This document shows positions 131 to 7,650 of a stretch of DNA of 7,668 nt, piece after piece. The DNA comes from a bacterium (GTDB lineage: Bacteria > T1Sed10-126). Position 1 is the stretch's first letter; the number at the start of each line of letters is the position of its first letter. The position numbers and the translations under genes were made by a program. The DNA lies in the NCBI GenBank assembly GCA_003554945.1, contig PWHN01000058.1, positions 1-7,668 on the forward strand, given 5' to 3'. The notes under the pieces are model-generated. The model was not told the DNA's origin, searched no databases, and worked only from the letters and a program-made list of their open reading frames with translations.

Positions 131-496
131 TTAAACTGCTTTTTTTACGGTTTCGATTTTTTGCCAACGATCACTTTCTTTAAGTTCATATAAATCATAG
201 GCTGATTGTAAATTCAGCCAGAAACGTTCACTTGTATCCAAAACCCGAGCAAGCATAGCGGCGGTTTCTGCTGTAACACGGCGTTTACCGCGAATTAGTT
301 CATTGACTCTCGTAACATGAACGCCCATATGATCAGCCAGTTCCCGTTGAGTCATATCCAGTGGATCCAAAAATTCTTTTTGGAGCATTTCACCTGGATG
401 GGTCGGAGATCGCTGCTCGGGAAGAAAAAAATCCCCCTCAATCAAATCCTCAGGTAACTGGGTTTTATCACTTTTCAACTTGTTTTCCGTGCTCAT
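131..496 (-). CDS. higA: HigA-type antitoxin, XRE-family helix-turn-helix protein
   Basis: This is the antitoxin of a HigBA type II toxin-antitoxin pair: in this family it binds and neutralises the toxin and represses the shared promoter. The protein is 121 aa. An N-terminal extension of about 30 residues, rich in charged residues, precedes the family signature HPGEML (33-38). An XRE helix-turn-helix follows at about 48-70 (MTQRELADHMGV...VNELIRGKR), then TAETAAMLARVL and RFWLNLQ, which are typical of the HigA/VapI group. The ATG at 496 has a good ribosome site (AGGGGT about 8 nt upstream) inside the 14-nt gap after the higB stop. Toxin-first gene order is the norm for higBA. The N-terminal extension makes it slightly longer than the usual roughly 100 aa. 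Family assignment is confident; activity is inferred. Confidence 0.93.
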   Translation of the reverse strand: MSTENKLKSDKTQLPEDLIEGDFFLPEQRSPTHPGEMLQKEFLDPLDMTQRELADHMGVHVTRVNELIRGKRRVTAETAAMLARVLDTSERFWLNLQSAYDLYELKESDRWQKIETVKKAV

Positions 497-510
497 ATAG
501 ATACACCCCT

Positions 511-807
511 CTAATGATAGTCTATAATTTCTACAGCATGAGGATGTCCTTCAATCCAGTAAAAACAAATCCTATATTGCCTATTTATACGAACAGATAA
601 CTGACCTTCTCGGTCAGCCGATAGTTTTTTTAGATTATATCCCGGAGTGGCTTCAATTTCATTTATATTTTCCGCTTTATCAATCCGGTCTAACATCCTT
701 TGAGCTTTAGAGTGTAGTCGTGATGGAAGTAAATTCCTGGCAGCCTTGCTGTTCTTACCCTGATAGACGTCCAAAGTTGCCTGATTTCTGAAGCTTTTGA
801 TGGACAT
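511..807 (-). CDS. higB: HigB-type toxin, RelE/ParE-superfamily mRNA interferase
   Basis: This is a 98-aa toxin of the HigB branch of the RelE/ParE fold; known members cleave mRNA on the translating ribosome. The visible family pattern is an N-terminal SIKSFRNQATLDVYQG, a central PGYNLKKLSADREGQLSVRI (55-74), the core strand INRQYRICFYW (74-84) and the C-terminal EIIDYH (93-98). The conserved arginines in SVRIN and QYRICF and the terminal His are in the positions expected for this family. Length is normal and the frame is intact. It is the first gene of the pair, 14 nt ahead of higA, with a purine-rich AAGAAAGAAGA upstream of its ATG at 807. A 25-bp palindrome lies about 20 bp upstream, which suggests autoregulation by the HigA or HigBA complex. 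Confidence 0.92.
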   Translation of the reverse strand: MSIKSFRNQATLDVYQGKNSKAARNLLPSRLHSKAQRMLDRIDKAENINEIEATPGYNLKKLSADREGQLSVRINRQYRICFYWIEGHPHAVEIIDYH

Positions 808-5627: not shown

Positions 5628-5707
5628 GACGGTGAAGGCGCCAAACAAGTATGGTGTTGTTGTGAATATCCGAATTAAGACGTAAAAGTTTCTCAACGGG
5701 GCTGGAT

Positions 5708-6853
5708 GTGATAGAATTTGTAGACAAAATAAAAAAGACCGAGGTTGAAATTATGGGATTGTTAGCAGGATTATATGAGCCCGAAAAAAACAAGCTTTAC
5801 CCGCCCGGTGAAATGGGGGCTAATGGAGCGGAAGAAGCTTATCTTCGGGCGGTGTATGACTATGAAATACTGGCCGAGACCCACAATATAAAGAGTGCTT
5901 TCCAGGGATGGGCAGAGCAGGGCATAAGATCTTTTATTGATCTGCTCCCCGTGGAATCACCAGAAAATTTAGAGGCTGAATGCGGCCCGAGTAGCTGTGA
6001 TTCACTCTGGGGGCGACCAGAAATACTATATAAAAACGAGCAGACTCTACAAAACGGAACAGTATTTGACCGGGTCGCGGTGTTACTCATCGGGCTGGCC
6101 CTGGAAAGTGGAGCCGAGGGGATCACAGGCGTTTTCAGGGATTGGAAGTTAATTAAGGCATTTGATAAAAATATCTCGAAAAAAGGAATCAGGGCAAAGG
6201 TTTTTGCTCCACAGAATGTTGTTGGGTCAGTTTATGAACCAGAAAATCTGATATTGAAGAAGCTGTCGGTACCGACAAGTGAAGCTTTTAAGAGAAGCCG
6301 GCAGATTGAAGCAGATAATTTTTACAACGTTACACCGGGATACAATCCTTACAGTCGCGAAGCTTATAAAACAATCGCTTATGAAATCTTTTTACAGCAG
6401 GGGAGGGTTCCCGAACGGATATATTTACCAATAGGCGAGGGCGACGTCATAAGTGGTATATGGGAGGGATTCGAAGAATTACGTATTATTGGCTGGAGTA
6501 AGAGTCAGCCCAAGATTTTTGCCATACTTTCGCCGGGGGATGAAGCACGAGCGAGATGGCTGGAAAGAGCACTTGACAAAGAAAAGCAAACAGTAAATTC
6601 CGAGTTGAGCGATTCTGGTCGAGGGATGTTTGACCTTCATTTCGCTGCTCAGGCGCTGCAACGCAGTGGTGGAGGTATTGTCAAAATCTCACGTGAAGAG
6701 CTGCGCCGGGCCGAACAGGAGAGTGCTTTTGCAGCGACCGGTCAGACAGTGTCGGCAGAATTTCATGCGGCTTACAACGTGGAAAATAATGAAAAGGCAG
6801 AGAGGGTAGTTTTTGTGGATACCGGCAAAGAAATGGTTCGGGAAAGAAAGTAA
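5708..6853 (+). CDS. PLP fold-type-II (threonine synthase-like) protein lacking the cofactor lysine; probable pseudoenzyme
   Basis: The framework of threonine synthase and its relatives can be followed through most of this 381-aa protein. Near residue 117, GTVFDRVAV aligns with the usual GSFKDRG-A block, followed by LALESGAEGIT. Further on come FYNVTPGYNPYSREAYKTIAYEI (205-227) and PIGEGDVISGIWEGFEEL (241-258). The C-terminal part has SGGGIVKISREEL (320-332) and VVFVDTG (367-373). The cofactor parts are altered. The Schiff-base Lys is Phe120, the SGN-type loop that holds PLP is replaced by GVFRDW (141-146), and the glycine-rich phosphate loop GNGG is GEGD (243-246). Ordinary PLP chemistry is therefore unlikely; a binding, scaffolding or structural role is inferred. 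The GTG at 5708 is used here; an ATG at 5753 with GAGG 8 nt upstream is an equally good start. An endonuclease III-like gene follows after 5 bp, so the two are probably co-transcribed. Databases may label it a threonine synthase. Confidence 0.8.
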   Translation: MIEFVDKIKKTEVEIMGLLAGLYEPEKNKLYPPGEMGANGAEEAYLRAVYDYEILAETHNIKSAFQGWAEQGIRSFIDLLPVESPENLEAECGPSSCDSLWGRPEILYKNEQTLQNGTVFDRVAVLLIGLALESGAEGITGVFRDWKLIKAFDKNISKKGIRAKVFAPQNVVGSVYEPENLILKKLSVPTSEAFKRSRQIEADNFYNVTPGYNPYSREAYKTIAYEIFLQQGRVPERIYLPIGEGDVISGIWEGFEELRIIGWSKSQPKIFAILSPGDEARARWLERALDKEKQTVNSELSDSGRGMFDLHFAAQALQRSGGGIVKISREELRRAEQESAFAATGQTVSAEFHAAYNVENNEKAERVVFVDTGKEMVRERK

Positions 6854-6858
6854 TATAA

Positions 6859-7650
6859 ATGCGCTGGTTATCCCGAAACGACAGTCGTATTAGAAAGCTC
6901 ATTGAAATCCTGGAGCAAATTTATGGCTGCCGTCAGCGTCGGCAGGGACTTGATTTAACCCAGGTTATAGTGCTAACGGTATTGAGTCAGAACACGACGG
7001 ACGTAAACTCGCGTCGTGGTTATTTTAATCTCTTAAAAGAGCATCCACCGGCGGCCGGTGTCCCGGAAGAGATAAAAGATAGCGGCTGGGACATCCGGGT
7101 CGTGGATTCAGCAAAAGAACTGCCACCGCCAGATTGGAAGAGTGTTCGTAAAAGCGATCAGAAATCACTTGAGAGTGCGATAGCACCGGCAGGCCTTCAA
7201 AAATCAAAGGCGGCGACAATCCGGGCGGTTTTAGACTGGCAGGACAACTTACCAGAAGAACCCGGCAGATATTTAGCTGACTTGCCGGAGGATGAAGGGA
7301 TAAAATGTTTGACTGAAATTAAAGGACTGGGTGTTAAGACAGCAGCAGTTGTGTTGATGGAGACAACGGAAGCTGACGTTTGTCCGGTTGACACACATGT
7401 CAATAGAATCTGCCGGCGGCTAAAACTGGTCGAATACGACGGGCCCAGCCGGGAGAAGCTTTTCGGGGAGCTTCAACCGCTAATTCCCTCCGGTGAGGGT
7501 TACAACCTGCATCACAACCTGCTAAGCTTCGGCCGGACGATTTGCAAAGCGCGGGACCCGAGGTGTGGCGACTGTCCGATCAAACAAATCTGTTGGGACA
7601 GGAGGGTGAGAAAGGAAGGAGAGGAACTAAAGCTTAAATTTCCAGGGTAA
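6859..7650 (+). CDS. Endonuclease III-like HhH-GPD DNA glycosylase with [4Fe-4S] cluster
   Basis: This is a base-excision repair protein of the endonuclease III superfamily, which removes damaged bases and can nick at the resulting abasic site. Visible elements are the N-terminal helix block VIVLTVLSQNTTDVNS (36-51), and the helix-hairpin-helix EIKGLGVKTAAVVL (153-166) with Lys160 at the catalytic-lysine position. VDTHVNRICRRL (177-188) follows, with Asp178 the catalytic aspartate. The C-terminal cluster motif is C-X6-C-X2-C-X5-C, with Cys229/236/239/245. It is 263 aa against 211 for E. coli Nth. Part of the excess is an insertion at about residues 62-104, so it is a divergent subgroup rather than classical Nth. 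The ATG lies 5 bp after the upstream stop, with only a weak AAAGAAAG ribosome site, suggesting coupled translation. The substrate is not predictable from sequence. Confidence 0.92.
   Translation: MRWLSRNDSRIRKLIEILEQIYGCRQRRQGLDLTQVIVLTVLSQNTTDVNSRRGYFNLLKEHPPAAGVPEEIKDSGWDIRVVDSAKELPPPDWKSVRKSDQKSLESAIAPAGLQKSKAATIRAVLDWQDNLPEEPGRYLADLPEDEGIKCLTEIKGLGVKTAAVVLMETTEADVCPVDTHVNRICRRLKLVEYDGPSREKLFGELQPLIPSGEGYNLHHNLLSFGRTICKARDPRCGDCPIKQICWDRRVRKEGEELKLKFPG

Follow-up and report, generated by a model that had tools for sequence, protein, structure and literature searches.

A putative pseudoenzyme descended from PLP-dependent threonine synthases in the bacterial phylum T1Sed10-126

Results

Genes and features at the locus

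The analysed window, i.e. the whole stretch of 7,668 nucleotides, comes from T1Sed10-126 (Ca. Busufiota), a phylum of two genomes (2.15–2.2 Mb) from soda-lake sediment (PMC11382960). Its forward strand contains an open and intact reading frame at positions 5708–6853. The features in and around this frame are:

5690..5717, +: possible extended -10 promoter, TTCTCA-16-TAGAAT with TG (consensus match only)
5753..6853, +: threonine-synthase-like putative pseudoenzyme, 366 aa from ATG 5753 (evidence: PALP domain, PDB threonine synthases, ortholog, profile alignment)
5753..5842, +: N-terminal segment, residues 1–30, MGLLAGLYEP..., in place of a Cys4 ribbon; 50% identical between orthologs
6056..6076, +: former Schiff-base motif GTVFDRV, residues 102–108, with Phe105 at the Lys position; ortholog GTSLYRG
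6128..6145, +: former substrate/PLP loop GVFRDW, residues 126–131, opposite the ASTGN loop of enzymes; ortholog LLTVQP
6344..6367, +: NPYSREAY, residues 198–205, opening the best-kept block NPYxREAYKTIAxExxLQ
6434..6445, +: former phosphate loop GEGD, residues 228–231; ortholog SEGE, enzymes GDGN/GDGC/GDGV
6859..7650, +: endonuclease III-like DNA glycosylase (nth-like), HhH-GPD and 4Fe-S domains

Translation probably starts at ATG 5753. The GTG at 5708, from which a sequence-only reading of the locus had counted, is disfavoured, since the first methionine of the ortholog is the residue matching ATG 5753 and since a GAGGT is found seven bases upstream of this codon. Phe120 and K109 of the former numbering correspond to Phe105 and K94 when counted from the ATG. 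Promoter-like sites were found four times versus 1.9 times expected in shuffles, by consensus match only; the best of them, at 5690–5717, would possibly put the transcription start after GTG 5708 and before ATG 5753.

Upstream of the gene lies a divergent rnfC, as identified by domain search, and presumably rnfD, G, E and A, which we named by reading of the translations, continue this array. Directly after rnfA genes for a HigB-like toxin and a HigA antitoxin (131–807, reverse strand) occupy the place where rnfB is expected from the usual order rnfCDGEAB. The rnfB match of the genome lies on a separate contig (G000:C115).

Homology and fold

As judged from sequence, the protein is a homologue of threonine-synthase-like PLP enzymes along its length. 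Its homology along the fold assigns it to the fold-type-II family PF00291, for which the PALP domain match (E 3e-18, 66.6 bits versus a cut-off of 35) covers the second half of the protein. NCBIfam threonine synthase models gave 56.5 bits versus a curated cut-off of 421, and the remaining models also stayed far below. The Pfam/NCBIfam search returned no above-cut-off domain other than PALP/threonine synthase. PDB threonine synthases were matched at 4e-8; the best matches by sequence and by fold, the ThrC structures 2zsj, 6cgq and 1uim, are PLP enzymes with cofactor motifs. Using hhalign, a profile of 27 homologues was aligned nearly end to end (348 columns, 99.9% probability). AlphaFold models calculated from a two-row alignment were poor (pLDDT of 37.6 with the window protein first and 40.4 with the ortholog first), because only two rows were usable. 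A Foldseek search with the low-confidence ortholog model, taken as supporting only, placed threonine synthases at the top (E 3e-8, probability 1.0, TM-scores of 0.3–0.4).

Loss of the cofactor motifs

Motifs were compared in an alignment of 29 homologues, namely the window protein, its ortholog and 27 enzymes. All 27 enzymes carry the S(S/T)G-N, GDGN-type, EPA and TGNG-LKD motifs in recognisable form, as well as a lysine motif of the type (A/G/F/L)S(F/L/Y)KDR (GSFKDL in ThrC). Only the window protein and its ortholog lack the lysine and all of the cofactor motifs. GTVFDRV aligns gap-free with (A/G)SFKDRx, such that the Schiff-base lysine, present in 27/27 enzymes, is replaced by Phe in the window protein, just as the sequence-only reading had proposed, and by Leu in the ortholog. 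Neither GTVFDR nor the GTSLYR of the ortholog corresponds to (G/A)SxKDR. The suggested replacement of the S(S/T)GN substrate/PLP loop is likewise borne out: GVFRDW and LLTVQP lie opposite the ASTGNAG loop of the enzymes.

At the phosphate loop, GEGD and SEGE are partly similar to the loops of the relatives used (GDGN/C/V or GGGG) and end in an acidic residue. The initial comparison of GEGD with GNGG had correctly noticed an altered loop but used the wrong yardstick and overstated the change. Since the nearest intact relatives carry GDGN, GDGC or GDGV, the change is small, its notable part being the acidic last residue. The proposed rewriting of three PLP motifs was confirmed, though the count was too low. 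EPA is deleted or substituted, TGNGLKD has become TGKEMV (window) or TGFDYE (ortholog), such that neither ortholog carries the C-terminal EPA and TG(N/S)G(L/F)KD motifs, and both have lost the four cysteines that form the N-terminal Cys4 ribbon in the enzymes. In the best-kept block REAYKT stands where enzymes have REGKKT (Gly to Ala, Lys to Tyr).

By this alignment the loss exceeds what is expected by chance: the genome's true ThrC lies roughly as far from the threonine-synthase-like (TS-like) enzymes (mean identity of 26.5%, versus 23.3% and 23.1% for the two pseudoenzymes) and keeps 36 of 53 near-invariant columns, whereas the window protein keeps 22 and the ortholog 20.

Were the lysine merely misplaced by the alignment, the protein could still work as a PLP enzyme, using a Schiff-base lysine at a shifted place. 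K109 (K94 from the ATG), which precedes the Schiff-base position by 11 residues, would be the candidate. It pairs, however, with the separately conserved lysine of LKDD/LKNE at an identical 11-residue spacing, so that no shifted Schiff-base lysine is available. No further lysine occurs between K109 and K147, and the phosphate-loop and C-terminal motifs are likewise lost. We consider this explanation highly improbable; by alignment no other lysine takes the Schiff-base site.

A single ortholog under shared constraint

The sole close relative found is an ortholog in another genus of the same phylum (genome G001; L026:8001–9146, the same protein as L004:1519–2664), where the source of L026 is the MAG CSSed10_354m from soda-lake sediment. 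The two share 40% identity and are similar in length; the ortholog, too, directly precedes nth, and it shows the same motif losses with different residues. A close homologue with intact motifs in the same context, which would have spoken against a stable family, is therefore not what was found: the nth-adjacent protein carries GTSLYRG and SEGE. It is the loss that is shared, while the residues which the sequence-only reading had pointed to differ between the orthologs (F/L; GVFRDW/LLTVQP; GEGD/SEGE).

Identities at codon positions 1, 2 and 3 between the orthologs were 0.51, 0.60 and 0.35. Fourfold sites were 0.36 identical, a saturated level that is also found for arcC, otc and the TS-like paralog described below. 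The constraint on the protein is thus far above that of saturated synonymous sites, which places the pair under purifying selection. The pair forms a clade that selection maintains although its catalytic residues are lost, as is characteristic of pseudoenzymes, with this conservation being based on one comparison of two distinct orthologs.

The gene evolves faster than most, as would be the case for a decaying or neutral paralog, or an assembly artefact, heading for loss. Among 48 sampled reciprocal best hits of the two genomes the median identity was 57%, versus 40% for the pseudoenzyme, though 23% of the pairs also reached no more than 40%, so the gene is fast-evolving without being exceptional. 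Against decay stand its intactness in two genera and two MAGs, the similar length, the stop-free frame and the constraint far above saturated synonymous sites, so that we regard decay as very unlikely. The earlier view of an intact, non-decaying gene agrees with the open frame, with the 40% identical ortholog having the same losses and with the divergence by codon position.

Two scans of genome contigs revealed no relative beyond the G001 ortholog, and no ortholog was found in the scanned viral contigs. In about 400 genomes across the domain and three small phyla no further member without the lysine was seen among the matches read, the weakest of which were read in part. Matches among plasmid records were confined to ordinary threonine synthases of about 25% identity (lysines unread). 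Further members may exist beyond the genomes, viral contigs and plasmids scanned.

Shift of constraint away from the old pocket

Segment identities between the orthologs were compared with those of 176 enzyme pairs of 35–45% overall identity. The orthologs were more similar than the enzyme pairs over residues 1–30 (0.50 versus 0.30), 31–93 (0.49 versus 0.28) and 190–272 (0.54 versus 0.48). Over residues 94–189, which comprise the lysine and the SGN loop, the identity was 0.26 versus 0.49, and over the C-terminal residues 273–366 it was 0.24 versus 0.42, in both cases under every one of the 176 enzyme pairs. Only 5 of 16 motif columns were identical between the orthologs, while every enzyme pair had at least 11. 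Furthermore, the orthologs agree at 58 positions in residues that are rare (≤10%) in enzymes, among them several charged or aromatic ones. The redistribution of identity over the segments is the main evidence that selection has left the old pocket and now acts on the N-terminus and on the NPYxREAYKT...GFEELxIxGW block.

Origin and relation to paralogs

In a phylogenetic tree the two pseudoenzymes form one clade (support 100/100) outside the sampled enzymes. The stem is long (3.9 changes per column), so that the exact position of the pair is unsure. The genome has seven PALP members, of which the other six all keep the lysine; we take these to be a CysK-, a TrpB-, a ThrC- and a diaminopropionate-lyase-like protein, the protein of an arcC operon and a distant 492-aa member, with four of the names assigned by sequence reading.

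The TS-like PALP enzyme of the arcC-TSlike-otc operon (L002:964–2157, L005:1405–2598) belongs to the same family and aligns with the pseudoenzyme over the full length, as seen in the stretch GDGNIISGVWKGF against GEGDVISGIWEGF. In contrast to the pseudoenzyme, it keeps the Cys4 ribbon, SFKDRAS, STGNAG, EPAG and TGNGLKD, and it is 71% identical between the two genera (pseudoenzyme 40%). Given its similar G-loop, this paralog was weighed as the ancestor. The tree places the pair elsewhere, with a position left unsure by the long stem, and this origin was rejected.

The neighbouring glycosylase gene

In the window the ATG of the nth-like gene follows five bases after the stop codon of the pseudoenzyme gene, and in G001 the two genes overlap by 8 bp. 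They are probably co-expressed. The upstream neighbours in G001 differ from those in the window. Conserved adjacency to nth is weak evidence for a functional link, since gene order is generally conserved: of 31 codirectional gene pairs sampled, 21 are neighbours in the two genomes alike. Against this background, synteny was rejected as proof of function. In other phyla, 28 nth-like loci were read, and no PALP gene adjoins any of them.

The glycosylase (6859–7650, forward strand) reaches the cut-offs of neither the nth nor the monofunctional glycosylase models. Its N-terminal residues 1 to about 90 are unaligned in most homologues and are shared at least partly with a protein of G068 (L053).

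Discussion

The comparisons above describe a stable pseudoenzyme family, known from two sequences, that by sequence descends from PLP threonine synthases. The idea that selection kept the fold and dropped the chemistry gains support from an ortholog that is 40% identical and lacks the same motifs, and from the codon-position divergence. As all motifs that hold the cofactor are lost, the protein must have another, probably non-enzymatic task. With modest confidence, we explain the whole best by a stable pseudoenzyme that most likely serves as a non-catalytic scaffold or regulatory subunit via protein contacts. By sequence, an ancestral fold-type-II threonine-synthase-like enzyme had given up PLP binding by the time the two genera diverged, and the present proteins would not bind PLP. 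The new N-terminal segment together with NPYxREAYKTIA...RVPERxY...GFEELxIxGW may provide the contact surfaces. The likeliest partners would be, speculatively and about equally probably, the nth-like glycosylase or the intact TS-like paralog of the arcC-otc operon. Partner binding is therefore a putative role and our best guess. The more specific idea that, in a candidate phylum, a PLP-free threonine-synthase fold now serves a base-excision repair glycosylase of the endonuclease III type as its dedicated partner or regulator appears doubtful.

Ligand sensing, which had been suggested as an alternative to partner binding, would mean that the old pocket binds a metabolite such as an amino acid, homoserine phosphate or a B6 vitamer, leaves it chemically unchanged and passes a signal on to a partner. 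The fold is kept, and both orthologs share T103, R107, K94, N198, E203 and E229-G230, which lie within or close to the old motifs. The segments of the pocket loops are, however, the least conserved between the orthologs (26% for the lysine/SGN-loop segment, below the 176 enzyme pairs, and 24%), the motif residues differ (5 of 16 columns identical versus at least 11 in enzyme pairs), and an acidic D/E occupies the phosphate-loop position where enzymes have N, C, V or G. A ligand sensor is thus disfavoured and seems unlikely, as does any ligand conserved at the former PLP site. The 58 shared positions that are rare in enzymes, with their charged and aromatic residues, could also be expected of a repurposed enzyme whose reaction needs no PLP and takes place in a newly formed active site. 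No new cluster of catalytic-type residues was recognised, and PALP/threonine synthase are the sole Pfam/NCBIfam domains above cut-off, which makes us consider such a reaction improbable.

Tryptophan synthase beta is a fold-type-II PLP enzyme. A plant TSB-like pseudoenzyme is a non-catalytic relative of it that activates the partner protein TSA (PMC12727527). This protein has two key residues changed, is eukaryotic and has a known partner, whereas the window protein displays a wholesale loss of motifs. Rv3778c of M. tuberculosis is, like the window protein, a bacterial PLP-enzyme relative without the PLP lysine; it is presumed non-catalytic and possibly functional but is a distant cysteine desulfurase relative and thus of another PLP fold family (PMC12910592). 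Pseudoenzymes derived from PLP enzymes are therefore already known as a kind, among which the window protein is real and unusual; our literature search turned up no publication that describes a threonine-synthase pseudoenzyme. The dead relatives of PLP enzymes known so far are mainly eukaryotic, with bacterial cases being isolated. Here one would have a bacterial, threonine-synthase-derived family in which the entire cofactor machinery is gone while other parts are more constrained. With two small proteins the question what a PLP fold does without PLP becomes directly testable. Automatic annotation would label the pseudoenzyme, wrongly, as threonine synthase.

Further observations on the PALP proteins of the genome

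The order of carbamate kinase, TS-like enzyme and ornithine carbamoyltransferase at L028 1502–6811 (G000:C100) recurs in G001. By reading, we take this row to consist of two YgeW-like carbamoyltransferases, a carbamate kinase, the intact TS-like PLP enzyme and an ornithine carbamoyltransferase. Related TS-like enzymes of other phyla (L006, L007, L008) also adjoin a carbamate kinase or a carbamoyltransferase, and the label 'threonine synthase' does not make evident what the substrate of the L028 enzyme is. The distant 492-aa PALP member (L087; G000:C81:8923–9603, reverse strand) has its lysine in GAHK and is possibly an uncharacterised PLP enzyme; the adjoining reading frame is presumably ParB-like, as read from its sequence.
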